From the NCBI GenBank assembly GCA_003609755.1, contig AP017991.1:2311501-2375500 (forward strand): a stretch of 64,000 nucleotides of DNA, in the 5' to 3' direction. A model generated the notes under the pieces. That model saw nothing but the letters and a program-made list of their open reading frames with translations, was not told the DNA's origin and searched no databases. Of this stretch, positions 15,702-59,655 are shown in pieces (positions within the stretch are counted from its first letter, which is position 1; the number at the start of each line of letters is the position of its first letter). A program made the position numbers and the translations under genes. This DNA is from Planktothrix agardhii NIES-204 (GTDB lineage: Bacteria; Cyanobacteriota; Cyanobacteriia; Cyanobacteriales; Microcoleaceae).

Positions 15702-15714
15702 CTTCTTAATATAA

Positions 15715-23454: not shown

Positions 23455-23513
23455 GTGTCTTAATATTCCTCCTGCCTTTGATTGTGATTGAAAAATTTTA
23501 ATGAGCCGATCTA

Positions 23514-24278: not shown

Positions 24279-24279
24279 T

Positions 24280-26195: not shown

Positions 26196-26294
26196 CGGCC
26201 CTTTATCCTCTTGAGGTGTTCAAGCATGATTTTGATTTACCTGTCCTAATCATAAAACCTTCTGGGAGTAGCAATTAACAGTTTATATTTTGTC

Positions 26295-27050: not shown

Positions 27051-27082
27051 GCGGGTAAGAGAAACTAATTTATATAATTATA

Positions 27083-27649: not shown

Positions 27650-27678
27650 AATTTATTTTTGACTCAGTTATTAATAAA

Positions 27679-27702
27679 GATGCGCCCAAGCGCAACAAGA
27701 TG
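27679..27702. repeat. GTTGCG-type short palindromic repeat, copy 2
   Basis: Reverse-complement orientation of copies 1 and 4: GATGCGCCCAAGCGCAACAA. It lies between the Uma2 pair and mtnP. Confidence 0.6.
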
Positions 27703-27719
27703 AATTTTATCAAGATTTA

Positions 27720-27735
27720 GGTGGCTGATGCCACC
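27720..27735 (-). terminator. Hairpin after mtnP
   Basis: GGTGGC and GCCACC pair perfectly around a TGAT loop, six bases beyond the mtnP stop. On the minus strand it is followed by TAAATCTTG, a weak U-tract. A probable terminator. Confidence 0.5.
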
Positions 27736-27741
27736 CTCGGT

Positions 27742-28614: not shown

Positions 28615-28748
28615 GCTTTTTCCTTGATTAAGTTGTACTCAAATATTGTACCTAAAATTGGGCATAATTAACTTAGGGAAGATATTAATTTTTTCCCTAT
28701 TGGGATTATTCCCTTGTAAGATGTCCCCTTCTTAGTTAAACTATTAAT
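28615..28748. other. Upstream part of the intergenic region between mtnP and the glycosidase
   Basis: About 130 bases of AT-rich DNA that should hold the mtnP promoter. It leads into a heptamer tandem repeat. No gene is visible. Confidence 0.4.
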
Positions 28749-28905
28749 CAGTCATCAGTCATCAGTCATCAGTCATCAGTCATCAGTCATCAGTTATCAG
28801 TTATCAGTCATCAGTGAAAGAAGTTAAATTAATACTTAACTCATCAATGATCACTGTTAACGATTTCACAACTGATAACTGATTACTATTTACTGATAAT
28901 TGATA
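28749..28905. repeat. Heptamer tandem repeat CAGTCAT and its complement
   Basis: About nine CAGTCAT or CAGTTAT units from 28749 to 28815, then an opposed block (ACTGATAACTGATTAC) at about 28870-28905. The motif is the same as at 24280. It precedes the start codon of the glycosidase gene at 28931. Confidence 0.85.
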
Positions 28906-28930
28906 TTAGTCATATCCTTTAACAAAAAAC

Positions 28931-30580: not shown

Positions 30581-30724
30581 AATTGGGAAGACATAATAAC
30601 TCCCATTATAGCAAGAGGCAATAGGGAATAGGCAATCTCGCTATAGGTAAATACTTACTGTGAGCAGCTTTTAGCTTTCAAGAATGTCCTAATAGATGTG
30701 GCGACTGCTATAACAAGGGAATAG
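30581..30724. other. Gap after the glycosidase gene
   Basis: About 140 bases of non-coding DNA before the terminator hairpin. A faintly repeated phrase (GCTTTTAGCTTTCAAG) resembles internal sequence of the 62744 element. Nothing else is visible. Confidence 0.35.
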
Positions 30725-30748
30725 GGGGGATCAAAGTCCCCCTTTTTT
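30725..30748 (+). terminator. Intrinsic terminator
   Basis: GGGGGA and TCCCCC pair around a six-base loop and are followed by TTTTTT on the plus strand. It lies 145 bases after the glycosidase stop. Confidence 0.8.
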
Positions 30749-30860
30749 ATGCAGCAGGGCTGTTTCAAAGTCCAGTGAAAAAGAGTAAAGAAAGAGCGAT
30801 CACTACCTGATAAAATAAAGAGTAGTCGCTAACTTTTTACAAAAATAAAGATGTTATAGC

Positions 30861-30930
30861 AGGGAACAGGGAACAGCCCCCTAACCCCCCGTGCACGCAG
30901 GGCTAGGGGGGGAGGGAACAGGGGGGAACA
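30861..30930. repeat. GC-rich palindromic dispersed repeat, copy D (degenerate)
   Basis: Same orientation as copy A. The core reads CCCCCCGTGCACGCAGGGCT, with a damaged right arm, and the flanks GGGAACAGCCCCCTAA and GGCTAGGGGGGGAGGGAAC are conserved. It lies 11 bases before the pgm stop. Confidence 0.8.
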
Positions 30931-30940
30931 GGTTAAACAA

Positions 30941-32653
<1,713 letters not shown>

Positions 32654-32748
32654 TCAGTTATCGACAAAACTAAGAAATACCGGGTTGCACGAATAGGAAA
32701 ATCTCAAAGGTTGTCCCTTTTCCGTCTTCACTCAGACAGAACATTAAG

Positions 32749-33420
32749 TCAGGAATTGCTTGAATCAAACGGCTGGTTTTTAGTCCCCATTAACCAGCGT
32801 GTAATTGTTCCATCATCTTCGCTTTGGGAACGTTGTAGGGCTTCAGTCACTAAGGCTATTTTTAATCCGGGTAAAACTTGGGATTCTTCGATTAATCGAC
32901 TCCCTTGGTTTTCGACCGCAAAGGCTAATATTGTGTTATCTTCAACGTTTACAACCCAATATTCTTGGATTCCTAAGTTTTCATAGAGTAATCTTTTTCG
33001 ACCAATATCATCTACAAAAGATGATGCAGCTATTTCAACAATTAAGCTGGGGGAGGTAAATTCATCTAAATTAATTGGGGAATTATTGCGAGGAGGAAAT
33101 GGTAAGTTATCCCCAATATAAAACCCGATATCTGGCTGACTTTCTCTGGCTCCTGTTTTTCGGAAAGATGTGTTAGTAAATCCTTTAATCCGAATATTTT
33201 TAATAGCCGCATAAACTAAGATTACCGTTGATAGAATTGTGTTATCGTGTCCGTGTGCTGAACCTAGTGGAGCCACTTCTATCCTCATGTATTCTTGATC
33301 ATAATAAAACTTACCCTCAGCATACTGAGGATTCTCGGCTAGGGCTGAAAATTCTTCCCAGGTCGCTTTTACCCAAGTATCCGTCGGTATTGTGATTAAA
33401 GGAGGAGCTTGAATCATCAT
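32749..33420 (-). CDS. Uma2 family (DUF820) putative endonuclease
   Basis: A 223-residue Uma2 protein. Core motifs are SQPDIGFYIGDN (aspartate), SLIVEIAASSFVDDIGRKRLLYE (glutamate and lysine) and IQEYWVVNVEDNTILAF. The start is an ATG at 33420; a GTG two codons upstream is also in frame. Members of this family occur in large numbers in cyanobacterial genomes; this one is not obviously paired with anything. A nuclease fold is known for the family, the biological role is not. Confidence 0.92.
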   Translation of the reverse strand: MMIQAPPLITIPTDTWVKATWEEFSALAENPQYAEGKFYYDQEYMRIEVAPLGSAHGHDNTILSTVILVYAAIKNIRIKGFTNTSFRKTGARESQPDIGFYIGDNLPFPPRNNSPINLDEFTSPSLIVEIAASSFVDDIGRKRLLYENLGIQEYWVVNVEDNTILAFAVENQGSRLIEESQVLPGLKIALVTEALQRSQSEDDGTITRWLMGTKNQPFDSSNS

Positions 33421-33695
33421 TAACACCTAAACCTTAAATTTAGCGTTTTTATAATTATAACCGATCAAACCAATCTTTACCACCCGATAATTTAGCTAAT
33501 TCTTGATCAATGGGGTTGGGTAATTCTTTCTAAAACTTATATACTAGCGGGGCGAATGGCTTGTTCTATGGCTTCCTCCAAATAAGATTGCCATTGATCG
33601 GCTTGAATATAATAGGAATTTTTATTATCTTTTGAATTAAGTTTTTTAATCTTAATGATAGAATCAGATATTGAAGCAATCCAAGAATTTATTAT

Positions 33696-35555
33696 ATGCC
33701 ATCTGTTACAACTTCTCCTCTAATTAAAGATCCTGAACGTTTAGAAAAACAGTTACGAGATATTCCTCCGGTTCCGGGGGTGTATTTAATGCGAGATGGT
33801 CAGGATAATATTCTTTATATTGGTAAGTCTAAAAAATTGCGATCGCGGGTACGTTCCTATTTTCGAGAACAGCATCATCACACCCCACGCATTTATTTAA
33901 TGGTACAACAAGTTACCGAGATAGAATTTATTGTCACCGATACGGAAGCAGAAGCCTTAGCTTTAGAAGCCAATTTAGTTAAACAACATCAACCCCATTT
34001 TAATGTTCTGCTCAAGGATGATAAAAAATATCCCTATTTATGTATTACTTGGTCGGAGGATTATCCGCGAATTTTTATTACCCGTAAACGCCTTTTAGGT
34101 AATATTAAAGATCGTTATTATGGCCCCTATGTGGATACCAGGGTATTAAGAAATACCTTGCATTTAATTAAACGAATTTTTCCCCTGCGTCAACGACCTA
34201 AACCTTTATTTAAAGATCGTCCTTGTTTAAATTATGATATTGGTCGCTGTCCGGGGGTTTGTCAACTATTAATTTCTCCTGAAGAATATCGAAAAATTGT
34301 GCAGAAAGTGGCGATGATTTTTCAGGGAAGATCGGGGGAATTAGTTGATCATTTAGCGGAACAAATGGAACAAGCCTCGGAAGCCTTAAACTTTGAAACG
34401 GCGGCGATAATTCGAGATCAAATTCAAGGGTTACAGTCTTTAAATGCAGATCAAAAAGTTTCTTTACCCGATGATCGTGTGTCCCGTGATGCGATCGCTT
34501 TGGCGGCTAATTCTCAACAATCCTGTGTGCAGTTATTCCAAATTCGCGCCGGAAAATTAGTCGGACGCTTAGGGTTTACCGCCCAAGTTCCCCCGGAGTT
34601 AAAATCAACGGAAATGGGGTTAATTTTACAGAGGGTTTTAGAAGAACATTATCAATCTGTTGATCCGGTGGAAATTCCCAATGAAATATTAGTTCAATAT
34701 CAGTTACCAGATGAATCTATTTTAACAGATTGGTTGAGCGATCGCAAGGGAAAAAAAGTCACGATTTTAACCCCCCAACGTCAAGGTAAAGCGGATTTAA
34801 TTGAGATGGTAGAACGGAATGCGGAATATGAATTAGAACGGGTGCAAAAGTTAAGAGATCGTAATACTTTAGCCTTAGAAAATTTAGCAGCAATTCTCGA
34901 TTTACCCGATCTTCCCCATCGTATTGAAGGTTATGATATTTCCCATATTCAAGGGTCAGATGCAGTCGCCTCCCGGGTAGTATTTATTCAAGGTTTACCC
35001 GCCCAACAATACTATCGTCATTATAAGATTAAAAACCCCACCGTTCACGCCGGACATTCCGATGATTTTGCCAGTTTAGCAGAAGTGATTGGGCGCCGTT
35101 TTCGAGACTATGCTACTTCAACAGATAAACCGGATTTAATTATGATTGATGGGGGAAAGGGTCAACTTTCGGCGGTAGTTACTGTTTTAGAAGAACTGAA
35201 TTTATTAGAGGAAATTCGCGTAGTTAGTTTAGCCAAACAACGGGAGGAAATCTTTTTACCTGGAGAAAGTTTACCCTTAAAAACCGACTCCGAACAACCT
35301 GGGGTTCAACTATTAAGAAGATTACGAGATGAAGCTCACCGGTTTGCGGTTAGTTTTCATCGAAATCAAAGGACTCAACGCATGAAGCGATCGCATTTAG
35401 ATGATATTCCCGGGTTAGGACATCATCGACAAAAATTATTATTAGCTCATTTTCGTTCCCTGGAATATATTAGAATAGCTACTCCAGAACAGTTAGCAGA
35501 AGTCTCGGAAATTGGGCCGAAATTAGCTCAAGAAATCTATAATTATTTCCATTAA
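33696..35555 (+). CDS. uvrC: Excinuclease ABC subunit UvrC
   Basis: A 619-residue UvrC. The GIY-YIG nuclease is at the N-terminus ([19 protein letters not shown]), making the 3' incision. A UVR motif at about 205-240 ([19 protein letters not shown]) contacts UvrB. The RNase H-like 5' nuclease domain shows [15 protein letters not shown] and [11 protein letters not shown]. Helix-hairpin-helix repeats close the protein ([31 protein letters not shown]). It performs both cuts of nucleotide excision repair, important in a light-exposed organism. The ATG at 33696 starts MPSVTTS. The gene has a run of nested palindromes after the stop. Confidence 0.97.
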
Positions 35556-35556
35556 A

Positions 35557-35601
35557 GTAGTGAGTCCTTGAGGACTCAGAAAGCCCTGAAGGGCTTACTA
35601 C
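35557..35601. terminator. Nested palindromes between uvrC and the WGR gene
   Basis: TGAGTCCTTGAGGACTCA (35561-35578) and AAGCCCTGAAGGGCTT (35581-35596) are two perfect hairpins, enclosed by GTAGT and ACTAC. They lie between convergent genes and could terminate both transcripts. The shape also fits a dispersed repeat. Confidence 0.55.
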
Positions 35602-35628
35602 TGGTAGTCAGTCCTTCTGCTATCCTCC

Positions 35629-37227
35629 CTAGCCACAAGCCCAAACAAACGCAAACTGATCTTTATGGGTTTTGCATTGCAGAATATGGGCAATTCCCAG
35701 ATCACCAAACGCATAGTTGAGGTTTTGCTCCGAAGCTAGTTGAAACACTTGCCGCATTGGAGCCTGACAAACGGGACAGCCTGGACACTCCATACCCTGA
35801 ACCCAGCGCGGGTAGCCCCCCAGCTTATCGCTCTCATCCGTCGGGTATAGCTCATCGTAGTTATCCAAATCATCCAGACCCAAACGCTCCATCACTGCAT
35901 CCCACAAGTCATTTTCTTGCAACCGCTCCCAGCCGCTTACCAGCTCCACCAGATCATCAGGGTCAGGATAGTCTTCAATTTCTAGCCATTCGGTGATGGT
36001 CTTGGCTGGTAAATAAGTTCCATAATCTTCTCCATCAATTTGCGGTAGTGGTGGAGTTGAGCCCATACCCACTGGTTGTACTACACGAATTCTAACGTTT
36101 TTAATTAGGAATGGAACTCTACCATAATAAATTGTTCCTTCTTCTGCCTCGAACCCACATTTATCAGACATACAGTGGAACATTTGCAATAGACCTGTAC
36201 CAAACTCCTCACGGACAGGTTCTGGCAATTGACTCAAATTCAGTTGCAAAAACAGTTGCAGGGGCTCGGCGCAACAGGGGCAACCGGGCCAGGTTTCATC
36301 TATTCCCAGCCAGGGACGACCGGAAAACTTGGAAGCTAGGCGATCGCTATCCCCTTCAATCACAATCGGCTTCCAGGCGGGACGAACAAATTGGGTAATA
36401 TTGAGATTAGAGTTAGGAGAATCATTTACTATTTGGGTAGGTAAAGGTGCTCCAGAATATTGGGATGGGCTTGGCTTCCCTTTAGGCAATAGCACATAGC
36501 CTTTTTTCAACTTTTCATTGATTTTCTTATAGGCAGCATTTAGGGCTTTTCTGGGACTGCCATAGGTACTGTTGTCGGTTTGTCCCGTCGTACCAATACG
36601 CCCATAGCGGAACGTGACCGTTAATCCACTCACCGTGACTTCATAGAATTTGTGGGACTTGTCATCGGAGAATTCTAGGTAAATGGGTTCATTGATATGA
36701 CCTGGTGTATAGTAAGGGTCATGAATGCAAATGGTGGAATAGTAATATTCTTCGGCTGCTTCTTCGGAATCAAACTCACGCAGTTTGTCAGACAACACAT
36801 TCCCACAGTAACCACTCTCAATCAACCTTACCTGGCGACCATCTAGGATTATATTTCCATAATCAGGCATTTTACCCGTATCAATCTCAAACTGATGGTT
36901 ATTTAGATCGGGCTGAGGTAAGGGATAGCAAGGAAAGTCATGATTGCGTGATTTATTACTGGGAATCAACACACTCCCACCCAAGAAAAAACTCCCATCC
37001 GCTAGGACAAATAATTCTTCAGTGAAAGCAGGGTTTGTCCAATTTAGCAAAATAGAGCGGGCATCGGTTGAGATGGTGTAATCACCCGAACGATGGTGGT
37101 TTAATATCTCGCAAGTGCCATTGGGTTCAAATAAATAAGGGTATTTCTTATTTTGCAGCCAGATGGAACCCGTTAGTTTTTCCTGAAGATATTTAGAGGA
37201 TAATTGAGATGGGGGATTCTTAGGCAT
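35629..37227 (-). CDS. WGR domain plus DUF1963 (YwqG-like) protein
   Basis: A 532-residue soluble protein. Residues 20-100 are a beta-rich unknown domain (GSIWLQNKKYPYLFEPNG). At about 185-250 lies a WGR domain (KFYEVTVSGLTVTFRYGRIGTTGQT), a fold that contacts DNA ends or nucleic acids in PARP proteins. The C-terminal 230 residues match DUF1963 (YwqG): CPCCAEPLQLFLQL, GGYPRWVQGMECPGCPVCQ, and AHILQCKTHKDQFAFVWAC, with CxxC pairs that may bind metal. Neither domain has an established bacterial function. The ATG at 37227 is preferred over a TTG at 37254. A small helical protein gene lies 23 bases upstream and may be co-transcribed. A relic of a related DUF1963 gene is at 52999. Confidence 0.88.
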   Translation of the reverse strand: MPKNPPSQLSSKYLQEKLTGSIWLQNKKYPYLFEPNGTCEILNHHRSGDYTISTDARSILLNWTNPAFTEELFVLADGSFFLGGSVLIPSNKSRNHDFPCYPLPQPDLNNHQFEIDTGKMPDYGNIILDGRQVRLIESGYCGNVLSDKLREFDSEEAAEEYYYSTICIHDPYYTPGHINEPIYLEFSDDKSHKFYEVTVSGLTVTFRYGRIGTTGQTDNSTYGSPRKALNAAYKKINEKLKKGYVLLPKGKPSPSQYSGAPLPTQIVNDSPNSNLNITQFVRPAWKPIVIEGDSDRLASKFSGRPWLGIDETWPGCPCCAEPLQLFLQLNLSQLPEPVREEFGTGLLQMFHCMSDKCGFEAEEGTIYYGRVPFLIKNVRIRVVQPVGMGSTPPLPQIDGEDYGTYLPAKTITEWLEIEDYPDPDDLVELVSGWERLQENDLWDAVMERLGLDDLDNYDELYPTDESDKLGGYPRWVQGMECPGCPVCQAPMRQVFQLASEQNLNYAFGDLGIAHILQCKTHKDQFAFVWACG

Positions 37228-37250
37228 AGACACTTGGGTATTTTTTATAT

Positions 37251-37508
37251 TCAAATATAACTCAACTCCATATCAACTTCGGTCATAATTTCTAAAAACT
37301 CCTCTTTTCCCTCCCAAGGAGTAGCTAAAAATTCTTTCATCTGATTTAGTTTATCCTCCAGGGTAATTTCTTGAATAGATTCTTTTTGATTAATCTCCCA
37401 ATCTCTTTCTCGTATTTTTCGAGCAATATTTTCTAATAACCATAGTTTTTCAACTAAGAATAAATTATTGATTGATTTTTCTATTTCTAATAATTGTGGT
37501 GAGATCAT
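37251..37508 (-). CDS. Small helical antitoxin-like protein
   Basis: An 85-residue acidic protein from the ATG at 37508 (ISPQLLEIEKSINNLF, EKLWLLENIARKIRE, LNQMKEFLATPWEGKEEF). It is almost entirely helical and has the size and charge of the small proteins that cyanobacteria encode next to PIN or RelE toxins, although none is found here. An ORF start at 37589 adds 27 residues of low-quality sequence. It is followed closely by the WGR/DUF1963 gene on the same strand. Function unknown; the antitoxin idea rests on look only. Confidence 0.6.
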   Translation of the reverse strand: MISPQLLEIEKSINNLFLVEKLWLLENIARKIRERDWEINQKESIQEITLEDKLNQMKEFLATPWEGKEEFLEIMTEVDMELSYI

Positions 37509-37625
37509 GTTAAATTGTCCTTTAAATTTAGATGGGTTTAAATTTTTGATATCAATTATAAAAGATGCAAAAAAAATTAACACGAACATTTGATGTGATG
37601 ATTGAAGATTTAGTATAAATTAGAT

Positions 37626-37651
37626 AGGCTGTCAGTTTTCACTAACAGCCT
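37626..37651 (-). terminator. Hairpin after the DUF4912 gene
   Basis: AGGCTGT and ACAGCCT pair perfectly around a 12-base loop, 34 bases beyond the DUF4912 stop. No clear U-tract follows on the minus strand, so it may be a processing or dispersed hairpin instead. Confidence 0.45.
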
Positions 37652-37684
37652 GTTTAATATCTAAAATTAATCTTGTAGAATTTG

Positions 37685-39652
37685 TTAGAGTCTGAAAAAG
37701 GTTTTTCCTCTGAGGTCTTCATCCCAAGGAATATTAATAAATTGGTAATTTTCCCAGTCTGTGGGATAAACAGGAGGGATATGAATATGATTTGATCTGA
37801 CTAAGATTAACCAACGTCCATCTACGGTTAAATAACCCAATTCTGCGATATAATCTCGATCACTCATGGCAATCGGGATATGCCATTCTCTAGCCATCTC
37901 ATCACACTCATATTCCTGGGTGGACAAGGGTGGCTGGGTATCAATATCAATCGAGGTGACATCATAAACCCGCAGGAGAAGGTGTTTTCCTCCTTGGTGA
38001 CGTAGATGTTCCTTATGTTCATTGGGAATATCCCAATAGGCATAGGCCCAATTTGGGTCACGGGGTAATAGGAAAATCTGACTTTGACCATATCCATTGG
38101 GTAATGGTGGAAGTTCCTGGTCTACATCCGCCAGGGATGGCTCAAATTTTATTTCCTTTCCTACATTAAATTTAGTAGCTGCTACGTCTGTTTCTGAGCG
38201 AACATCTTGATGGGATACTCCTAATTCTATTTCTTCATATCCCCCCGTAGACGGGGGGTTGGGGGGGGCAGATTCTAATGCTGTTAATTGATCATCAACT
38301 TTAGCAAGTGTTGATTCTATTTCTATAATATCCGATTCCAAAATAACAGATTTATTCTGAATTTCAAGCTCAGATTCTACTATTTCTGAAACTGGTATTT
38401 CCGGTTCTATTAATCGATCATCAACTTTAGCAACTGTTGATTCTATTTCTATAATATCCGATTCCAAAATAACAGATTTATTCTGAATTTCAAGCTCAGA
38501 TTCTACTATTTCTGAAACTGGTATTTCCGGTTCCGTTAATTGATCATCAACCGCAGCAACTGTTGATTCTATTTTTATAATATCTGATTCCAAAATAATA
38601 GATTTATTCTGAATTTCAAGCTCAGATTCTACTATTTCTGAAACTGGTATATTCTCAATTTGTGTTTTTGTTGTCAAAAATTCTGCAATTACAGTTTCAG
38701 CTTCATCCGGGTCAATTTCCTTGATTAATACTACTTCTGAAATTTCTTCAATTCCCCCATTTTTAATAGGATAAAATTCCGGCTCAGGAGAGTTTGCTGG
38801 GATGAAAAATTCTCCTTCCGGTGGGATTTTAACCTGATTTTCAAATAGGATTAATTCATGCGGGGAAATGGCGATCTCAGAATCTAAATTATCCCTCTCC
38901 GATTCTATTAAACTAATAGATGATCCTTGGGTTTGTAGATTATTTTCTAGTTGAAACGTTTCTGTCTGATGCCGTTTTTGAATAATAGTACGAGGGAGAG
39001 AAACAGTAGTAACTGCTGGAGAAAATGGTGTTTTTAAAGGTTCTATAAACGGGTAATTACTATTAGGAGAAAATGGTGTTTTCAGAGGTTCTGTCAAACT
39101 ATTAAAATCCAGTTGAGTAGAATTTTTCTGAGGTTGCTCCCCTGTGACATCGGGTTTTGTAGATAAGGGAACAGAAATAGGGTCTTCTTGTTTTTTGACT
39201 GGGGACTTAGAACGTTGAGCTTTCAATTGTAAATTAACCCATAAACCCAAAAACGGGATCACAGGGAGTAACCACCATAACCAAATCGGGATTTCTCCTT
39301 CCGTTGCGGGAACCGTCGTCGGCTGCATCTGGGAAGATTGCCCAACTAGGCTATCATTATTCGCGTTAGTTTGGGGTGAACCCGAATCAATCTGGCTCAA
39401 TAGAATCTGTTGTTGAGAACTCAACCCTAACCCAGAATCTGATCCCGGTTTGGGTTTAAACTCTCCTACTGGGGGAACAATATTAATATTCCTAACCTGT
39501 GCGGGAGACAACAAGGACGACTCTGAAAGCGCGGAAGAATTGACGCTAGAGTTAGAGTTCCATCGAGAAGTCGCCCAGGCGATGGGACTCGTCGCTATTG
39601 ATAACAATAACGTTAAGGTCAATATCGATGTATCTTTTTTATTTAACAACAT
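37685..39652 (-). CDS. DUF4912 protein with triple internal repeat
   Basis: A 656-residue protein from the ATG at 39652, which places a signal peptide (TSILTLTLLLSIATSPIAWA) at the N-terminus; an ATG at 39745 is in frame but would put 31 extra residues before it. A second hydrophobic helix is at about 122-143 (IWLWWLLPVIPFLGLWV). Residues 335-455 hold three near-identical acidic blocks of 42 residues. The C-terminal 130 residues are DUF4912 (FLLPRDPNWAYAYWDIP, LLLRVYDVT, YIAELGYL), a beta-sandwich related to carbohydrate-binding modules. The protein should sit in the cell envelope, perhaps binding glycan. A GC-rich dispersed repeat is translated between the repeats and the DUF4912 domain. Function unknown. 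Confidence 0.88.
   Translation of the reverse strand: MLLNKKDTSILTLTLLLSIATSPIAWATSRWNSNSSVNSSALSESSLLSPAQVRNINIVPPVGEFKPKPGSDSGLGLSSQQQILLSQIDSGSPQTNANNDSLVGQSSQMQPTTVPATEGEIPIWLWWLLPVIPFLGLWVNLQLKAQRSKSPVKKQEDPISVPLSTKPDVTGEQPQKNSTQLDFNSLTEPLKTPFSPNSNYPFIEPLKTPFSPAVTTVSLPRTIIQKRHQTETFQLENNLQTQGSSISLIESERDNLDSEIAISPHELILFENQVKIPPEGEFFIPANSPEPEFYPIKNGGIEEISEVVLIKEIDPDEAETVIAEFLTTKTQIENIPVSEIVESELEIQNKSIILESDIIKIESTVAAVDDQLTEPEIPVSEIVESELEIQNKSVILESDIIEIESTVAKVDDRLIEPEIPVSEIVESELEIQNKSVILESDIIEIESTLAKVDDQLTALESAPPNPPSTGGYEEIELGVSHQDVRSETDVAATKFNVGKEIKFEPSLADVDQELPPLPNGYGQSQIFLLPRDPNWAYAYWDIPNEHKEHLRHQGGKHLLLRVYDVTSIDIDTQPPLSTQEYECDEMAREWHIPIAMSDRDYIAELGYLTVDGRWLILVRSNHIHIPPVYPTDWENYQFINIPWDEDLRGKTFFRL
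38239..38270. repeat. GC-rich palindromic dispersed repeat, copy E, inside a coding region
   Basis: CCCCCCGTAGACGGGGGG followed by TTGGGGGGGGCAG, in the same orientation as copies B and C. It is translated in frame on the minus strand as ESAPPNPPSTGGYEE within the DUF4912 gene. Confidence 0.8.
38283..38650 (-). repeat. Three tandem 126-bp units in the DUF4912 gene
   Basis: Units start at 38650, 38524 and 38398 (minus strand), each encoding IPVSEIVESELEIQNKS followed by ESDII, IEST and VDD motifs. The third unit is cut short at its end, where copy E of the GC-rich repeat follows. High identity suggests recent amplification. Confidence 0.85.
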
Positions 39653-39745
39653 ATATATAACCGCAAGCTGTTGACCGAAAATCCGAGGACGCCAGCCCCC
39701 AAATTCATTGGCGGGGATCAGTCCGATGGGGAATTCGTTCCCCAT

Positions 39746-40008
39746 AATTTCTAATTTAACTGAAAATCACAGTTAACGATCAATATTTGAGCTTAGTCTA
39801 TCAGAAAATTGGAGTATGGGGGACTGGGGCTGAGTCCCCTGGAACATCAAACAGGCTGATTAATTGTCTATCAAAACTAATTTCTACATCCTGATGATGT
39901 AGGTTTTCAAGGAGTTACACTAGGTTAACAATAATCGGTTATTGTCAATCAATGATCAATTCAATTGTCAACCTTGAGTATTATTGAATTTCTAATGATT
40001 AATGTTTT
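39746..40008. other. Gap between the DUF4912 and DUF2973 genes
   Basis: About 260 bases without coding content. A hairpin with arms GGGGACT and AGTCCCC lies at 39819-39839 and may end the DUF2973 transcript, though no U-tract follows. Confidence 0.4.
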
Positions 40009-49204: not shown

Positions 49205-49684
49205 ATGGTCTATGAACTGGGACAAACTACCAAAAATATTAATGTTCCGATTATGAAAAAAGCCAGTGCCATTATTACTAATTCTGGGGGTAGAACTTGT
49301 CACGCGGCGATTATTGCCAGGGAGTTAGGAATCCCGGCAATTGTAGGATCAATTAATGCCACGGAAGTCTTAAATACCGGAGATAAAATTACGGTTTCCT
49401 GTGCGGAAGGAGAAGAAGGAAAAGTCTATCAAGGTTTAATTCCTTTTGTGGTGGAAGAAACGGTATTAGACTATCTTCCCAAAACCCATACCAAAATTAT
49501 GATGAATGTGGGAAACACGGTTAAAGAATATAATCGTAAAATCGGAATTTGTGGTCAAGCACCGAGTGACTATCCTGAATTTGCTCGTTTCTTAGTGGAA
49601 TTAGGAATAGATTCCATCAGTTTAAATCCTGATTCGGTGTTGAGGACAACTTTGGATATTGCTCAGATGGAAGCATCCCTCTAG
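49205..49684 (+). pseudogene. Phosphoenolpyruvate synthase relic
   Basis: One open frame of 159 codons joins two distant pieces of PEP synthase. Residues 15-100 are the phosphohistidine domain (PIMKKASAIITNSGGRTCHAA, the catalytic His in TCHAA, then IPAIVG). From residue 120 the sequence jumps to the C-terminal barrel end (KIGICGQAPSDYPEFARFL, GIDSISLNPDSVL), with about 300 residues lost in between. The ATP-grasp N-terminal domain is absent. It cannot make PEP. The junction sits near VGNTVKEYNRK. Confidence 0.85.
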
Positions 49685-52984: not shown

Positions 52985-52998
52985 AAACAAAATGAAGA

Positions 52999-53127
52999 AT
53001 GCAATTTGTCTTTCAAATCGATTCTAATGATAACTTACCAATTATTTTGGGTGATAGGGGATGCGGACATATTACCCAATGTCCTGAACATAAACAGATT
53101 CTAACCTTTAGTTGGGCTTGTTCTTAA
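52999..53127 (+). pseudogene. DUF1963 C-terminal relic
   Basis: A 42-codon frame from ATG 52999 to TAA 53125-53127 encodes FQIDSNDNLPIILGDRGCG and HITQCPEHKQILTFSWAC, the last part of a DUF1963 domain. It closely resembles the end of the WGR/DUF1963 protein at 35629 (FGDLGIAHILQCKTHKDQF). Everything before it is missing. Confidence 0.75.
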
Positions 53128-53222
53128 TTCTTATCGTTCATTATTAGACACCTCCAAAAACAAATCTCAAACCTTTATTCTGCTTGAACTATCATTTCTG
53201 GAGATGTTTATTAAAATGCCAT

Positions 53223-54302
53223 CTATTGCATTAAAACAAAAGGATGCGCTCGGTAAAGGGGATAACCCGGGAATTCGGAAAAACAGACTTTACTACCTTC
53301 TTGGGGTTGTTCACCATAAACACTATCTAAGTGGAAGAATATTTCCTTTCCGTCATGACTTCTTTTAATAATACCCTTATTCCGCGAGAAGTATCGATCT
53401 ACAATACCTTCCTTTCGGGCCTCAACTGGATAACATAATTTTTCACATTTTTGTACTAAATCATCTGCTGTAGGACGTTCCTCTGGATTTTTTTTCAAAC
53501 ATGAGAGAATTAATTCATATAGTTTCTTTCCCAGAGGTTGAAACTGAATCTTATCATCAAGGTGGGTTGGTTTTGGAGGCGGTGCAGCATTGAGAATATT
53601 CTGAACAGTGATTAAACCAAAGCCAAAAGGTTTTTCACCACTTATCAGTTCATACATCATTGCTCCCAGAGACCAGATATCTGAGGGCTTATCGGCATTT
53701 TTAAATTGTTTGATCATTTCAGGAGCCATATAGGGTAAAGCACCTAACACAGTTGAGGAATTACCCATAGAAGATTCTCCATCTTTAACAGCATTTGAAA
53801 TTTCTTCTTCAGCCATCTTCGCTATACCAAAATCAGTAATTTTAATTTCTGTTAGATTAAAACTTCCAGAAACCATAATATTGCTAGGTTTAAGATCACG
53901 ATGAATGACACCAGCACGATGAGAAGCAGCAATACCTTTCGCTAAATAATGAAAAATTTTAGCAGTTAAGTATGGATCTACGACTTGAAGCTTTTGTATA
54001 ACTCCTTCCTTAAGATCTTGACCTGAGATGAATTCTTCTATAAGATATAGGTTGTCTCCATCTTCCAAATAGTCTAAAGTCTTAGCTACATTAGGATGGT
54101 TTACCCTTGCACTAACAATAGCACTTCGCTGAAACCTTTTTTCAGCAGACATATTTTTAGGAACTTTAAGAGCAACTTCTCTTTTAAGTGCCAAGTCTTC
54201 TGCATAATAAACTTGTTGCATTCCTCCTTCACCAATAAAGTTAAGAATTTTATAACGATTACTGATACAATCGTTAGGGTGATGAATTTGACGGCTACTC
54301 AT
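53223..54302 (-). CDS. Ser/Thr protein kinase with cold-shock-like C-terminal domain
   Basis: A 359-residue kinase. The Hanks-type domain has all key residues: glycine loop GEGGMQQVY at 24-32, Lys46, HRDLKPSN at 134-141, DFG at 157-159 and APE at 193-195. No membrane helix is present, unlike most bacterial STKs with sensor domains. Residues 298-357 (EGIVDRYFSRNKGIIKRS, DGKEIFFHLDSVYGEQPQEG, KVCFSEF) resemble an OB-fold cold shock domain; the IFFH RNP2-like motif is kept while the RNP1 motif is degenerate. That suggests nucleic-acid binding or regulation of the kinase by it. It is the last gene of a PP2C-kinase-kinase operon, overlapping the kinase before it by four bases (ATGA). Confidence 0.93.
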   Translation of the reverse strand: MSSRQIHHPNDCISNRYKILNFIGEGGMQQVYYAEDLALKREVALKVPKNMSAEKRFQRSAIVSARVNHPNVAKTLDYLEDGDNLYLIEEFISGQDLKEGVIQKLQVVDPYLTAKIFHYLAKGIAASHRAGVIHRDLKPSNIMVSGSFNLTEIKITDFGIAKMAEEEISNAVKDGESSMGNSSTVLGALPYMAPEMIKQFKNADKPSDIWSLGAMMYELISGEKPFGFGLITVQNILNAAPPPKPTHLDDKIQFQPLGKKLYELILSCLKKNPEERPTADDLVQKCEKLCYPVEARKEGIVDRYFSRNKGIIKRSHDGKEIFFHLDSVYGEQPQEGSKVCFSEFPGYPLYRAHPFVLMQ

Positions 54303-55381
54303 AAAACAACCTCCGGGTTAGATATATCAAAAGTGATGAATGATCGGTTACGGTTATTGCTAGGAGATGATTCTCCTAGCGTAATAACACAACTTGTAGG
54401 GAAGACGTGACCTTGAAGAACAGATTCATTATTTACATAAACTGCACCGTTAACAAACTCAATCACAAAATCCAAGCCATTGTATTTAATATGAACTAAA
54501 CCCTGATTAGGAACGTCAAGCTTGACAACTTGATTAATTTTCTCAAAGCTATATACATTTCTCCCTAACACAATAAGTGCTTTGTGTTTTCCAAATAAAA
54601 GATACTTTCCCAATAAATTCCTAACATCTGACATATCAGGTCTATTTTTTGGATCTTCAGATAGCGTCAAATCAAGTAGTTGAGAAACTTGGTCAGGTAG
54701 ATTTAAGGATAGAGAAGAAAAACTGGGCAGAGACGTAGTAAAATCTGGAGGTATCTTTAATAATGAATCTGGAATTTTTTCTTTTGATAAAAACCAAGCC
54801 GTTACACCAAAAGCATAGGTATCTACAGCCTGTGTGAAAGATACATAATCCCCGTGATATAACTCTGGTGCGGCAAAACCAAGAGTTCCTGTAAATCCTT
54901 GAGTTGAATCATTTTTTCCTGTAAATCGAGCCAAGCCAAAATCAAATATCTTCAAAATATTTTCTTGATCAATCTTCATATTATTGGGTTTTATATCACG
55001 ATGAATAACCCCCTGTGCATGAATATCACTAATTCCTGAAGCTAGTTGATATAAAATCTTCAAATATTGATCTAGTGAAAATGATGTTTGATTAATTAAA
55101 GTTAATAAATCCTGTCCTGAGACATACTCTTGTACTATACCAATACGATCATTATCTTGTTGATCAATGAAAACATCAAAAATCTGAACAACGTGCTTTG
55201 AACGAAGTTTTTGCAGAGCATTGAGTTCATCAACAAGCCTGTTTTCATCTTGTACATTTTGAATAAATTTGATAGCGACAGGTCGGTCAAGATATGTATC
55301 AGTGCAAATTAATACATCTCCCATCCCTCCACTCAATTTCTCTCCGGTTTGGACATAACGGTCTGGAACCCTATAACACAT
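54299..55381 (-). CDS. Ser/Thr protein kinase with FHA-like C-terminal domain
   Basis: A 360-residue Hanks-type kinase: SGGMGDV (degenerate glycine loop) at 17-23, Lys38, HRDIKPNN at 127-134, DFG at 147-149 and APE at 171-173. From about 265 the chain becomes beta-rich (KALIVLGRNVYSFEKINQ, GLVHIKYNGLDFVIEF, VYVNNESVL, CVITLG, FITFDISNPEVVL), the strand pattern and VNNESV/ITLG turns of a forkhead-associated domain. The canonical Arg and Ser-x-x-His phosphothreonine contacts are not obvious, so it may be a divergent FHA. It starts five bases after the PP2C stop and overlaps the next kinase gene, so the three are co-expressed. Confidence 0.92.
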   Translation of the reverse strand: MCYRVPDRYVQTGEKLSGGMGDVLICTDTYLDRPVAIKFIQNVQDENRLVDELNALQKLRSKHVVQIFDVFIDQQDNDRIGIVQEYVSGQDLLTLINQTSFSLDQYLKILYQLASGISDIHAQGVIHRDIKPNNMKIDQENILKIFDFGLARFTGKNDSTQGFTGTLGFAAPELYHGDYVSFTQAVDTYAFGVTAWFLSKEKIPDSLLKIPPDFTTSLPSFSSLSLNLPDQVSQLLDLTLSEDPKNRPDMSDVRNLLGKYLLFGKHKALIVLGRNVYSFEKINQVVKLDVPNQGLVHIKYNGLDFVIEFVNGAVYVNNESVLQGHVFPTSCVITLGESSPSNNRNRSFITFDISNPEVVL

Positions 55382-55386
55382 AACAA

Positions 55387-56517
55387 TTAGAACTCCTCAG
55401 AAAATTCTATGTTTACTTGTGGAACAGTTTTTTCCACATTAGAACTACCGCTAACTTCATCGGTCAGTTCTGGTGTTTCTATATTTTTCTGTTTTTTACG
55501 TTTGGGTTGTTTCTTGGCTGATAAACTCTCCTGGTTTTTAACATCATCTTGACGTTGGATAGTTTCTGGCTCAAACTTTGTTAAGGTGTTGTGCTGAAAC
55601 GCTTCTGGTAGTATCTTAACGCTAAAAAGCTCAACTTTACCAGGCATTCCCCAAATTTCAAGAGAACCTAAGCTACATTCTTCCTCATGTAAGAGCAAAT
55701 TCTTGTCATAGGGTAAGACTGCCACTGTAGAATTATCCCTACCTCCCAGCCATTCTGAAAGAGAAATAAGACGAGTAACAGTATCTTTGGCAGTTTTGGC
55801 ATGAGCCACTATAGATTGAAAAATATCTTTTGGGATATCATGAGCCCCATCTGATGTGATTACAATCCACTTAACGTCTGAAGATGGTTTCAATTCGATT
55901 TCTCTTAATTCTATCCCTTTGCCCATACCAATATATTGTAGGAGTTGCCTAAATTCTGGCGGAGGAGAAGGAAGGTTTAGATCAGCTAGTTGATTCTCCA
56001 AGGTATCATCTGTACTAAGTTGCTTCATTTGGCCATTGTTCAAAACTTGGTAAATCCGGCTATCTCCTACATTTATCGCTGCCCATTGATCGGTTTGATC
56101 ACAAATTATCGCTGATAGCGTAGATCCACCTTTACCTTTATAAGCTGCGTAAACACTTTCGTTTGCATCTCGTACAGCTACACCCAACTTCTCAATGAGT
56201 GTAGGCGTATTGCTATGGACTAGAGAAGCAACAAATGTACTGATTGCTAAATTTGCACAGTCCCCGCCACTGACCATACCTCCCATTCCATCACAGAGTA
56301 CAAGAACAGCGAAAGCAGGTTTTCGTGACTCTTCAAATCTGACTCGGCAAAATAGAACACGATCTTGATTCTCAGAACGCCGACCTAGCGCACTTCCTAA
56401 TACAACTTTCTCCTGTTCTACTTCAATAACTTGAGATTTGTTACTAGAATGCAGCCATCTACAAATTATTTGTTGGATCGGTGCATAGATTTTATTGTCC
56501 ACCATACGCTGCCCCAT
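55387..56517 (-). CDS. PP2C family protein phosphatase
   Basis: A 376-residue PP2C phosphatase. Metal and phosphate residues: SENQDRV (Asp52), LCDGMGGMVSG (76-84), GGSTLSAII (130-138), INVGDSRIY (149-157), TSDGAHDI (221-228) and GGRDNSTVAV (258-267). It should reverse the action of the two kinases encoded right behind it. The last 90 residues are a lysine- and glutamate-rich tail (KKQPKRKKQKN) ending in VPQVNIEFSEEF, perhaps a docking peptide. The start ATG at 56517 is followed by a second ATG four codons on. First gene of the operon; a 113-base AT-rich gap separates it from the toxin gene downstream of the DUF433 pair. Confidence 0.95.
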   Translation of the reverse strand: MGQRMVDNKIYAPIQQIICRWLHSSNKSQVIEVEQEKVVLGSALGRRSENQDRVLFCRVRFEESRKPAFAVLVLCDGMGGMVSGGDCANLAISTFVASLVHSNTPTLIEKLGVAVRDANESVYAAYKGKGGSTLSAIICDQTDQWAAINVGDSRIYQVLNNGQMKQLSTDDTLENQLADLNLPSPPPEFRQLLQYIGMGKGIELREIELKPSSDVKWIVITSDGAHDIPKDIFQSIVAHAKTAKDTVTRLISLSEWLGGRDNSTVAVLPYDKNLLLHEEECSLGSLEIWGMPGKVELFSVKILPEAFQHNTLTKFEPETIQRQDDVKNQESLSAKKQPKRKKQKNIETPELTDEVSGSSNVEKTVPQVNIEFSEEF

Positions 56518-56630
56518 GCAAAACTGCTGGATACTTTACCTATTGTAATCGATCAGAATCAATTTTTCATCAATTATAATTGATAGGATCACAATTAGTC
56601 TATGTATTTTTTATCAGTTAAAAACATCAA

Positions 56631-57002
56631 TCATTTCTGCTCAATATAATAACTCAAAAATAGCAATTGATTGATCATATCCTCGGCTGAGTATTGAGAA
56701 ACAAGTTTGAGTAATCCCTGAAGTTGTTGTCCTATAGAATATTTTTGCTGTGGAACTAAGATAATTCCAGCATGGCTAATTTCTTGAACCATAAAATCAC
56801 GGTGTAAATGACAAAAATCTCCTATATTAAAGCTATAGATAATCCGTCCCTGTTCTATTGCCCAAAGGAGTTGATCTTCATCAGAATAACCTAATCTATT
56901 AACATCTGCAACAGTAACAACATCTAAATCTGCACTTCTTAAGGCTTGTATGAGTGCAGCTTTAATGGTGTCTTCATCTAGGTATAAGCGAATTCGACTC
57001 AC
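56631..57002 (-). CDS. DUF5615 PIN-like toxin
   Basis: A 123-residue PIN-like protein. The acidic residues YLDEDT near the start and FNIGDF at the centre fit the DUF5615 nuclease site. The GTG start overlaps the stop of the DUF433 gene (GTGA), the standard pairing of these two families. Together they make a probable toxin-antitoxin module, with this as the ribonuclease. It precedes the PP2C operon on the same strand. Confidence 0.88.
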   Translation of the reverse strand: MSRIRLYLDEDTIKAALIQALRSADLDVVTVADVNRLGYSDEDQLLWAIEQGRIIYSFNIGDFCHLHRDFMVQEISHAGIILVPQQKYSIGQQLQGLLKLVSQYSAEDMINQLLFLSYYIEQK

Positions 57003-57292
57003 GATAGATTTCCTACCTTAAATTCAGCTTCAAGGCGACGACATTCTTGATCATAGGCAGCAAATTCAGTATCTAATAAGACTTTATTCGCATAATAATA
57101 TGCCAGCGCACTGAAAACTCCGGCAAGGGTTAAAAATGGTTTGTCTTGAACAATTTCTTCAGGGGTAATTCCGGCTTTAATTTCATTAATAATATATTGA
57201 ACGGTAATCCGGGTTTGGGCAATTCGAGGACGACCTCCACAGGTTCCGGGGGTAGACACGATAAGTGTTCCAATATCTGTTAGGGTTTGCAT
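56999..57292 (-). CDS. DUF433 antitoxin
   Basis: A 97-residue DUF433 protein: VSTPGTCGGRPRIAQTRITVQ and INEIKAGITPEEIVQDKPFLT, a winged-helix fold. The family serves as antitoxin of DUF5615 PIN-like toxins. It should also bind its own promoter. The four-base overlap with the toxin gene signals translational coupling, the antitoxin being made first. Confidence 0.9.
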   Translation of the reverse strand: MQTLTDIGTLIVSTPGTCGGRPRIAQTRITVQYIINEIKAGITPEEIVQDKPFLTLAGVFSALAYYYANKVLLDTEFAAYDQECRRLEAEFKVGNLS

Positions 57293-57347
57293 CGTTAATT
57301 GGGTATTTTTTTAGATTATAACTGATCTGTCCTTGAATTAATTCACA

Positions 57348-58103
57348 TTAAGTGTTTGATTTTAACTGATTATTGGGTGTCAGTTCAGAATTAGTAACTA
57401 ATGCGCCATCTTCCATTTTAATAATCCGATCGGCAACATCTAAAATCCGGTTATCATGGGTAACAATTAAGATAGTACAACCCTGTTCTTTGGCTAAGGT
57501 TTGCATTAAATTAACCACATCTCTCCCCGAATGACTATCAAGGGCGGCTGTGGGTTCATCGGCTAATACAATGGGGGGATGACTAACTAATGCCCGGGCG
57601 ATCGCAACTCGTTGTTTTTGTCCTCCCGAAAGATTATCAGGATAATAATTTAAGCGATTTCCTAACCCAACTTTTTCTAACATTGCCGTGGCTTTTTGTT
57701 GCATTTCTGTACGAGAAAATTTACCCTGAACCTCTAACCCCATTTGCACATTTTGTAAGGTCGTTAAGCTACCATGTAAATTATGAGCTTGGAAAATATA
57801 ACCTGTATTTCGTCTGGCTTTAACTAACTCTCCTGAACGCGCACCTAAGAATTCTCGTCCTAATATATTTAAACTTCCCGACTGTACAGAACGTAACGCC
57901 CCAATTAAGGTTAATAATGTGGTTTTTCCCGAACCAGAGGGGCCAGTCATAATCACAATTTCACCGATGGTAATTTCTAAATTAATATCATATAACACCT
58001 GTTTTTGCAATTGCCCTTTACCAAAATAATGATCTAAATTTTGAATGGCGATCGCAGCATTGCATTTTGTGGAATCTTGAATATCTTGGATTTGAGTTTG
58101 CAT
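57348..58103 (-). CDS. devA: DevA family ABC exporter ATPase
   Basis: A 251-residue ABC ATPase. Walker A GPSGSGKTT, Q-loop in GYIFQAHNLHGSLT, signature LSGGQKQRVAIARAL, Walker B IVLADEPTAALD and switch His in IVTHDNR. The sequence matches the DevA/MacB group. In Anabaena DevBCA exports heterocyst glycolipids with the TolC protein HgdD; in non-heterocystous species homologues export other lipids or drugs. Its partners devC and devB lie 2 kb away on the same strand, separated by an opposite-strand block. The start codon is only 15 bases from that of the divergent GNAT gene. Confidence 0.92.
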   Translation of the reverse strand: MQTQIQDIQDSTKCNAAIAIQNLDHYFGKGQLQKQVLYDINLEITIGEIVIMTGPSGSGKTTLLTLIGALRSVQSGSLNILGREFLGARSGELVKARRNTGYIFQAHNLHGSLTTLQNVQMGLEVQGKFSRTEMQQKATAMLEKVGLGNRLNYYPDNLSGGQKQRVAIARALVSHPPIVLADEPTAALDSHSGRDVVNLMQTLAKEQGCTILIVTHDNRILDVADRIIKMEDGALVTNSELTPNNQLKSNT

Positions 58104-58118
58104 GGAGTTAACCTAAAA

Positions 58119-58691
58119 ATGGATATTTTTTTAGAAACGAAACGGTTAATTTTAAGGCAGTTTACTGAACTGGATGCAGATTTTTTATGGAATTTAGATA
58201 ACGATCCCAGGGTGATGAAATATATTAATTGCGGACATCCCACACCCAAAGAAGTTATTCAGACTCAAACGTTACCGAGATTTATGAGATATTATAGCAG
58301 ATATTCATATTTTGGGGTGTGGGCTGTTGTTGAAAAAGAAACCGGAGAGTTGATCGGATGGGTACATTTTTTCCCAGCAATTGATCACCCTTTTGCCGTT
58401 GCGTTAAATCTAGTACAACCCAATGAAATTGCGTTAGGATATCGGTTTATTTATAATAGTTGGGGGAAAGGATATGCAACCGAAGCCTGTGAAATTCTCA
58501 TAGATAAGGGGTTTTCAGAATGGATAGTAAAACGAGTTACTGCTTGGGCATTAGTGACCAATAAAGGCTCAATTCGAGTGATGGAAAAGCTAGGATTAAC
58601 CTTGGAAAAGCAGTTTAGATTTAGTGAACATCAACTCCCCTATATGAGTTTTGAAGAACGTTTAGCTGTTAAATATAGTCGGGGTAAGTAG
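58119..58691 (+). CDS. GNAT family N-acetyltransferase
   Basis: A 190-residue GNAT protein of the RimJ/RimL-like group: ETKRLILRQFTELDADFLW, VGWVHFFPAID (GWVHFF), IALGYRFIYNSWGKGYATEAC (acetyl-CoA loop RxxGxG-like), and WALVTNKGSIRVMEKLGL. It transfers an acetyl group from acetyl-CoA to an amine, perhaps a ribosomal protein N-terminus or a small molecule. The start is ATG 58119 with GGAG upstream; an ORF start at 58041 overlaps devA and is unlikely. It is the first gene of the block inserted between devA and devC. Confidence 0.88.
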   Translation: MDIFLETKRLILRQFTELDADFLWNLDNDPRVMKYINCGHPTPKEVIQTQTLPRFMRYYSRYSYFGVWAVVEKETGELIGWVHFFPAIDHPFAVALNLVQPNEIALGYRFIYNSWGKGYATEACEILIDKGFSEWIVKRVTAWALVTNKGSIRVMEKLGLTLEKQFRFSEHQLPYMSFEERLAVKYSRGK

Positions 58692-58704
58692 ATACTGAAA
58701 TTGC

Positions 58705-58773
58705 CCCAGAAATAGGGTTGTTCCGATAACTTTTGCATCCTAACAAAGATTTTGTTAAGAAGCCAGGTTTTTT
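58705..58773 (+). repeat. Direct repeat flanking hicAB, left copy
   Basis: CCCAGAAATAGGGTTG, then TTTTGCATCCTAACAAAGAT, then GTTAAGAAGCCAGGTTTTTT. Repeated at 59304-59361 in the same orientation. Confidence 0.65.
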
Positions 58774-58827
58774 ATCCAAAAACGAACAGCAAGGGATAAA
58801 ATAGTATGGAATATCAAGACAGTATCC

Positions 58828-59055
58828 ATGCCCAGGAAGATTCGAGAGTTGAAAGCTCAGATTTTGCGTGAAGGATTTATTTACTTGCCCAAGCGTGGCA
58901 AGGGTAGTCATCAGCGTTGGCGACATCCTCTGCTGAGAAAAACACTAACCATCCCCGGCAAGGATGGAGATGATGTGCCACTCTACCTCGAAAAACAACT
59001 AGAAAAGTTACTGACTGAACTAGAATATCTCAATGAGGAGGATAAGAGCTCATGA
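58828..59055 (+). CDS. hicA: HicA toxin
   Basis: A 75-residue HicA-type mRNA interferase. MPRKIRELKAQILREGFIY and KGSHQRWRHPLLRKT show the dsRNA-binding fold with the conserved catalytic histidine in GSHQ. The gene overlaps the hicB start by four bases (ATGA). HicA cleaves mRNA until neutralised by HicB. Confidence 0.93.
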   Translation: MPRKIRELKAQILREGFIYLPKRGKGSHQRWRHPLLRKTLTIPGKDGDDVPLYLEKQLEKLLTELEYLNEEDKSS

Positions 59056-59270
59056 ATCAATACAGTATGATTATTCAATGGTCTGATGAAGATCAACTTT
59101 TTCTGGTTACAATTCCAGAGTTTGCCGACCGAGTTGTCATGCCTTGCACTCATGGAAAAACTCGTGAGGAAGCGATTTATAACGGCGAAGAAGTGATTGA
59201 AATGTATTTGGAAGCTTGGCAAGCAGAAGGCGAAATTATCCCTCAAGCCATGACGCTTCAAACTGCTTAA
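59052..59270 (+). CDS. hicB: HicB antitoxin
   Basis: A 72-residue HicB: YSMIIQWSDEDQLFLVTIP with the RNase H-like fold, EFADRVVMPCTHGKTREEA and IEMYLEAWQAEGE. No DNA-binding C-terminal domain is attached, so it is the short antitoxin form. It neutralises HicA. Translational coupling with hicA is shown by the ATGA overlap. Confidence 0.92.
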   Translation: MNQYSMIIQWSDEDQLFLVTIPEFADRVVMPCTHGKTREEAIYNGEEVIEMYLEAWQAEGEIIPQAMTLQTA

Positions 59271-59303
59271 TAATTATAGCGATAAGTGTCTAACTCACCC
59301 GCG

Positions 59304-59361
59304 CTCCAGAAACAGGGTTTCTTTTGCATCCTAACAAAGATGTGTTCAGAAACCCCGTTCA
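59304..59361 (+). repeat. Direct repeat flanking hicAB, right copy
   Basis: CTCCAGAAACAGGGTTTC, then TTTTGCATCCTAACAAAGAT and GTTCAGAAACCCCGTTC. Matches 58705-58773 with an internal size difference of about ten bases. Confidence 0.65.
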
Positions 59362-59427
59362 AAATTACACAATAACGGCTTTTATAATCTATAATAGATC
59401 TTATCAAGTCTAGCTGGAATAAAACTG

Positions 59428-59655
59428 ATGTCAAATCAAAGTCTCTACAGTATTAGTCTGGAAAATCAAGATATTATTATTAAATTTAATCGAGAGATGG
59501 TAAATTTGGAGTTATTAACTCAATTTTTAGAATATCTTGAGTTAGAATCAATTCGTAATCGTAGTCAACTGACAGCAGAACAAATAACTAACCTGAGTCA
59601 AGAAGTTAATCAAGAAGTTTGGGATACCTTAATGTCCAAGTCTTGGGTTAGTTAA
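59428..59655 (+). CDS. Antitoxin-like partner of a PIN toxin
   Basis: A 75-residue acidic helical protein (LYSISLENQDIIIKFNREM, LELESIRNRSQLTAEQIT, EVNQEVWDTLM). It ends two bases before the PIN toxin start, the position of an antitoxin, and resembles small cyanobacterial antitoxin-type proteins without a clear DNA-binding domain. The exact family is not recognised. Confidence 0.75.
   Translation: MSNQSLYSISLENQDIIIKFNREMVNLELLTQFLEYLELESIRNRSQLTAEQITNLSQEVNQEVWDTLMSKSWVS

Follow-up and report, generated by a model that had tools for sequence, protein, structure and literature searches.

We identified a chromosomal KKP module in Planktothrix agardhii NIES-204, encoded by three adjacent genes within a 64,000-nucleotide stretch (contig AP017991.1, positions 2,311,501 to 2,375,500 of the forward strand; hereafter the window, with coordinates counted from its first nucleotide). 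We assign these genes, as PfpC–PfkB–PfkA, to this already published kind of system with a probability of about 0.93. KKP is a tripartite toxin-antitoxin and phage-defence system found in Pf6 and other prophages and consists, in this order, of the phosphatase PfpC, the FHA-bearing kinase PfkB and PfkA, a kinase that bears a cold-shock domain (CSD) (Guo et al., 2024; PMC11341870). The same paper counts more than 1200 KKP clusters, with over 90% of the published clusters in prophages and some in Cyanobacteria. An earlier note on this DNA had found no match to this precise composition among described systems; that was wrong, as KKP has the composition and extends to Cyanobacteria (PMC11341870). 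As a KKP member the locus was to be expected from the 2024 survey, and its additions are an αC serine in PfkA, the loss of a CSD phenylalanine and an overlap with the record of the phage PaV-LD. The module is known but its place is new; some of its sequence features are new as well, and it provides a good lead on phage counter-defence.

Gene order, lengths and domains match KKP

The module comprises three minus-strand open reading frames (ORFs; 56517-53223) that encode a PP2C phosphatase, then kinase 1, then kinase 2 (Table 1). Five bases separate the phosphatase gene from the gene for kinase 1, and the two kinase genes overlap by four bases (ATGA). Pfam assigns PP2C_2 to the phosphatase at 33 bits (cut-off 24) and Pkinase to the two kinases at 142 and 168 bits. 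The ORF coordinates and domains confirm the phosphatase-first layout, five-base spacer and ATGA overlap described earlier.

A PP2C gene (Pfam accession PF13672) followed on one strand by two Pkinase genes (Pfam accession PF00069) is the KKP order, all three gene lengths fall within the 900–1300 bp filter of the KKP paper (PMC11341870), and a CSD lies at the C-terminus of kinase 2. The window also resembles the published modules in combining PP2C with two Hanks-type kinases, of which the middle one carries a β tail and the last one a CSD tail, while homologues of its kinases occur in a P2-like prophage, a setting also known from the paper (PMC11341870). It differs from the KKP modules of prophages in its chromosomal cassette site, in a CSD motif that reads GII instead of GFI/GFA, in lacking an MvaU context and in a function that is putative. 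A prophage home is usual for KKP and is not a requirement. Nor do we take the GFI/A motif as KKP-defining, because it is described as conserved but is absent from the inclusion filters in the paper's Methods (PMC11341870).

Several points weigh against the assignment to KKP. The window was compared with the tested modules of the KKP paper by description (order, length, domains), not by sequence identity. Its CSD is without the GFI phenylalanine, mutation of which cost both toxicity and protection in Pseudomonas aeruginosa, and MvaU, the published host substrate of KKP, is a P. aeruginosa protein (PMC11341870). FHA (Pfam accession PF00498) was matched by none of the 21 PfkB members in Pfam searches. 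Some of the nine neighbouring genes scanned match PHROG families (unknown function, ABC transporter, esterase), none of them structural. Finally, no functional test of a cyanobacterial KKP appeared among the literature matches listed.

The earlier note had proposed a variant of the TerY-P triad (vWA–PP2C–kinase), a reading that we now consider very unlikely. TerY-P triads, like the window, bring PP2C and a kinase together in one operon; they differ from it in their vWA partner and in their architecture. No vWA (TerY-like) gene was found beside the PP2C and kinase genes among the neighbours scanned, and we rejected the TerY-P reading on this ground. The window moreover has two kinases with dedicated tails, and its order and tails match those of KKP. 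The PADLOC models for PD-T4-6 and MAD6, two defence kinases with a similar kinase domain, matched the window within that domain. Those systems have a single kinase or are otherwise built, and are not known to have the PP2C–kinase–kinase order.

PfkA has an invariant αC serine and a cold-shock tail

Kinase 2 keeps the catalytic Lys, HRD and DFG; in a gapless alignment, its Ser60 occupies the position of the PknB αC Glu. The earlier claim that all catalytic residues are present therefore holds for the Lys, HRD and DFG of kinase 2 and fails for its αC Glu. This serine is found in 21/21 aligned PfkA homologues and in 26/26 loci (24 distinct proteins; 24 loci were scored by script, and L050 and L051 were read by eye). 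PfkB retains the αC Glu in 21/21. PfkA and PfkB are reported to be toxic only jointly, with PfpC neutralising the toxicity; the kinases bind each other, and their joint toxicity requires both tails (PMC11341870). The invariant serine could account for the fact that neither kinase is active without the other. Neither ‘pseudokinase’ nor ‘glutamate’ appears in the main text of PMC11341870, and relative to the text of that paper the new details are the PfkA αC serine, the cyanobacterial loss of the GFI phenylalanine and a PQLxIxF-like tail in PfpC.

The tail of kinase 2 is, as judged from its sequence, a diverged CSD. Searched alone against the Pfam CSD model, it scores 19.1 bits (E 0.0013), under the curated cut-off of 27; among homologous kinase 2 tails, 20/21 match the model at E up to 0.1 (best 5e-9). 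A profile of these tails matches CspB (down to 2.3e-6) and Unr structures in the PDB, and over 60 columns it aligns with the two cold-shock proteins of the genome itself (E 5.3e-8). The predicted model of the tail has five strands (predicted local distance difference test score, pLDDT, 88–95). These Pfam, PDB and profile matches bear out the CSD-like fold recognised earlier, and the IFFH strand is kept. Fold searches with models of the whole kinases returned named matches that were all kinases and hence are uninformative on either tail.

Of the 26 loci, 21 have GFI as their CSD motif. In the cyanobacterial loci it is replaced by GII, GLI, GKI, GSI or GTI in five out of six; the sixth, L051, has GFI. 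Loss of the phenylalanine in most cyanobacterial PfkA seen here raises the question of what the CSD does.

PfkB has a β tail and PfpC a conserved C-terminus

In the model of kinase 1, an all-β domain spans residues 268–353 (mean pLDDT 87). A profile of this tail searched against the PDB gave two weak ion-channel matches alone (best E 0.79) and no FHA. Against the six FHA domains of the same genome, the best match, over 38 columns, lacks significance (E 0.035 for a single comparison, probability 1.5%). Of the FHA-like sandwich named in the earlier note, the all-β character stands as a prediction; the FHA reading agrees with the wording of the KKP paper, but no sequence method tried finds an FHA domain. 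In 24/26 loci, the C-terminus of PfpC is a PQLxIxF-like tail, the exceptions being L021, where the gene is split, and L030.

The module recurs in genomes and viral contigs

We made protein searches in genome contigs, with kinase 2 and at one genome per species, and in viral contigs. The order PP2C, β-tail kinase, CSD kinase was found in 22 of the 24 loci retrieved. Nine of 10 genome loci have the complete set in this order, the tenth being a distant kinase, and 13 of 14 viral loci hold the three genes, with PP2C as two ORFs in one of these 13 (L021). This recurrence of order and tails in genome and viral loci argues that the module is not a chance arrangement. Two further cyanobacterial genomes (L050 and L051) have the same order.

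The kinase 2 homologues in the alignment of 21 are 51–68% identical to that of the window over the full length, including the tail. In a tree of 26 rows, the window groups with the cyanobacterial loci L008, L009, L010 and L050 (support 95/91). An Escherichia coli plasmid record with P2-family phage genes (P2-like prophage) has both kinase genes adjoining the portal gene; PP2C is not one full ORF there. In L021 (5758-6920) and L035 (613-1778), both viral or prophage loci, PP2C is not one ORF and both kinases are intact, which could be a sequencing error or an odd state. Two viral contigs (L018, 1560-4772; L019, 1546-4758) have KKP near a gene for a 1070-amino-acid protein.

The module is patchily distributed and occupies a variable chromosomal site

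We detected KKP in 3/98 relatives, in 2/386 genomes of a phylum draw and in 5/388 genomes of an order draw, the last from five genera. Each count includes the genome of the window, and the draws overlap. Scoring was limited to the top candidates of each genome (at most 20 in relatives, five in the phylum draw and five in the order draw), so these counts are minimum values. G325, a genome of the same species, gave no KKP match in the phylum or order draw, and different content occupies its site.

This site lies between a gene for a 128-amino-acid protein and devA. Both flanking genes are present in 10/10 same-genus genomes, and five of the 10 keep the flanks close, with five different contents (Table 1). 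The three genes at this site in G325 (L048) may form an uncharacterised cassette for defence or partition. Among the nine neighbours scanned, PHROG searches revealed neither structural nor packaging nor integrase families of phages. A prophage location for the KKP of the window was rejected on the absence of phage structural families among these neighbours and on the presence of the flanks in all 10 same-genus genomes.

The PaV-LD record contains host DNA with part of the module

We found that positions 16958-22017 of Planktothrix phage PaV-LD (NC_016564) correspond, in reverse, to window positions 59630-54571, over 5,060 bp without gaps and with 42 mismatches (99.17% identity). Mismatches number 0/1136 in pfpC plus the five-base spacer, 1/811 in the pfkB part, 4/830 in the DUF region, 27/756 in devA, 2/588 in the GNAT gene and 8/939 in the rest. 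The PfpC of PaV-LD is intact and 100% identical (PHROGs, tblastn). Its PfkB is 99.3% identical over residues 1–272, and there is no PfkA. Since identity is complete up to residue 270 and the protein ends at 272, phage PfkB corresponds to the kinase domain without its tail.

The shared stretch is host DNA, as devA is present in all 10 Planktothrix genomes and the tested phage flanks (PaV-LD 10400-16957 and 22018-26000) match those genomes over short lengths only. Within the 55.6 of 95.3 kb of PaV-LD that was compared with the host genome (all but 1-10399, 26001-40000, 60001-70000 and 90001-95299), this insert is the sole match above 250 bp. Separately, PaV-LD and host contig C2 share an exact match of 43 bases. 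Two CRISPR arrays of the genome itself (L150, C1:668000-669700; L151, C1:1225200-1227000) contain seven spacers against PaV-LD, of which six are exact matches of 33–41 bases and one has a mismatch, and three of the matches lie within 1.3 kb of the insert. The host strain has therefore met close relatives of PaV-LD.

To compare phage relatives, we took the best 80 of 110 viral loci related to the PaV-LD head decoration protein. The insert sequence occurs in 0/80, the right flank occurs in 13/80, and at least 90 bp of both flanks occur in 9/80 (11 at a looser threshold). At the right junction, phage homology starts within 12 bases (22018-22029) in 11/11 relatives that run past the junction. At the left junction, homology extends to 16956 in two relatives, L075 and L087; in the remainder it ends some 70 bases or more before the junction. 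Between the flanks lie 1,197 bp in L075 and 687 bp in L087, which make up most of an N6/N4 methyltransferase gene that is whole in both; PaV-LD retains only the end of this gene, which is common to 6/80 relatives. The methyltransferase gene in L075 and L087, together with other genes at this place in several relatives, indicates that the place of the insert is variable in phages too.

Lake Erie contigs have been reported as phage-like for PaV-LD ORF036 and ORF037, with nucleotide identities of 100% for the phosphatase and 99.15% for the kinase ORF037 (99.26% at the amino acid level; PMC10343443). The chromosome in the window matches PaV-LD at 1131/1131 nucleotides of the phosphatase gene and at 812/819 nucleotides and 270/272 amino acids of the kinase. 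As the reported identities are exactly those that the host chromosome gives, the Lake Erie contigs are most simply host DNA, which suggests the presence of this KKP in Lake Erie Planktothrix, not of a phage insert there. That ORF036 and ORF037, called phage genes in one environmental study, are of host origin is a warning.

Two readings of the PaV-LD overlap

By published KKP logic, PaV-LD is left with the antitoxin but no toxin. This phage may have captured the antitoxin half of a host KKP, namely an intact PfpC with its upstream region and a tailless PfkB without PfkA. The captured phosphatase would keep the host kinases off, the tailless PfkB might poison the kinase pair and abortion by KKP would be blocked; most of a phage methyltransferase gene would have been the price of the capture. 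We offer this reading tentatively and regard it as possible but rather doubtful; the fragment end inside pfkB could also be chance. A precedent is phage PhiTE, which escapes ToxIN by a hijacked ToxI (Blower et al., 2012; PMC3475682). In both cases a phage would gain a defensive antitoxin by recombination with a host-side locus, whereas in PaV-LD the antitoxin would be an enzyme (PP2C) instead of the ToxI RNA, 5 kb of chromosome would have been captured and an escape phenotype is a prediction. No report of antitoxin capture by PaV-LD was found among the literature matches listed, which is weak evidence.

It is possible, though at clearly less than even odds, that the 5,060 bp are instead host DNA wrongly joined into the PaV-LD record through a chimeric clone or assembly. 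Exact matches to the two junction 31-mers are absent from the viral contig collection, so that capture is read from one phage genome (two accessions); the relatives that lack the insert while holding both flanks, and the host-like identities of the Lake Erie contigs, likewise favour a misjoin. Phage homology in the relatives nevertheless begins almost exactly at the right junction and, in L075 and L087, extends as far as the left one; apart from the insert, the part compared has no long match to the host genome. Because the flanks in L075 and L087 enclose most of the methyltransferase gene, a chimera would also need two misjoins and dropped phage sequence. Whether phages steal enzymatic antitoxins could readily be tested on this overlap.

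Proposed mechanism and a possible drifted role

PfpC is inhibited by T4 Gp59, and four heterologous KKP modules protect E. coli from T4 (PMC11341870); a Pf4 protein causes degradation of PfpC (PMC13048266, 2026). Order, domains, homology and a strain-variable location are what we observe in the window, and we infer a mechanism from the published modules of P. aeruginosa, E. coli and Shewanella. The two kinases would jointly phosphorylate many host proteins and so stop growth, and the PP2C phosphatase would hold both the kinases and the proteins they act on in a dephosphorylated state. Once a phage product inhibits or eliminates the phosphatase, the kinases would be released and the infection aborted. 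The idea in the earlier note of a phosphatase–kinase–kinase module of a kind tied to phage response is supported, and its suggestion that the phosphatase resets the system agrees with the KKP model. Its proposal that one kinase reads phosphothreonine-like or structural cues and the other nucleic acid is a hypothesis that goes beyond the published need for both tails in joint toxicity and the published binding between the kinases.

The same module could have drifted in cyanobacteria to house-keeping or stress signalling, with a CSD that no longer binds nucleic acid as GFI implies and with no part in defence. The altered motif in most cyanobacterial PfkA would fit such a role, as would the lack of phage structural, packaging and integrase families around the window's module (the family scan covers this module; the other five cyanobacterial loci were viewed as ORF lists). 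Very patchy presence, absence from a same-species genome, the cassette site and the overlap with a phage record all fit defence or mobile-element conflict better, and we consider a drifted role improbable.

Features of the window and its cassette site

Table 1. Position, strand and description of the features discussed, in window coordinates unless a locus is named.
Feature	Position	Strand	Description
pfpC-like PP2C Ser/Thr phosphatase (antitoxin in the KKP model)	55387..56517	-	376 aa, 1131 bp; catalytic domain, charged linker, C-terminal tail PQVNIEFSEEF
pfkB-like Ser/Thr kinase (kinase 1)	54299..55381	-	360 aa, 1083 bp; kinase domain aa 17-253, then all-β C-terminal domain
pfkA-like Ser/Thr kinase (kinase 2), PknA/PknB-like fold	53223..54302	-	359 aa, 1080 bp; αC Glu replaced by Ser60
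C-terminal β domain of kinase 1	54302..54613	-	FHA according to the KKP paper; sequence methods here detect no FHA
Cold-shock domain tail of kinase 2	53226..53438	-	IFFH strand retained; GFI motif is GII
DUF5615 PIN-like toxin candidate	56631..57002	-	Upstream neighbour of the module
DUF433 antitoxin candidate	56999..57292	-	
DUF1963 gene remnant	52996..53129	.	134 bp; left edge of cassette site; gene intact there in two same-genus genomes
Stretch common to window and PaV-LD record	54571..59630	.	Part of pfkB, pfpC, DUF5615/DUF433, devA, GNAT, HicA/HicB region
HicA/HicB-like pair	58828..59270	+	Within the PaV-LD-shared stretch; coordinates mapped from PaV-LD 17318-17760
Cassette site contents, window			KKP and DUF433/DUF5615
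Cassette site contents, G325 (same species)	L048 3621-5257		ParA-like ATPase, 168-aa protein, Mrr-like restriction nuclease (weak Pfam match)
Cassette site contents, G003			Nothing
Cassette site contents, G004			DUF1963 gene and more DNA
Cassette site contents, G005			DUF1963 gene and DUF433 stub

Elsewhere in the window, an ORF at 49205-49684 resembles only part of a phosphoenolpyruvate-utilising phosphotransferase protein and may be a gene fragment.

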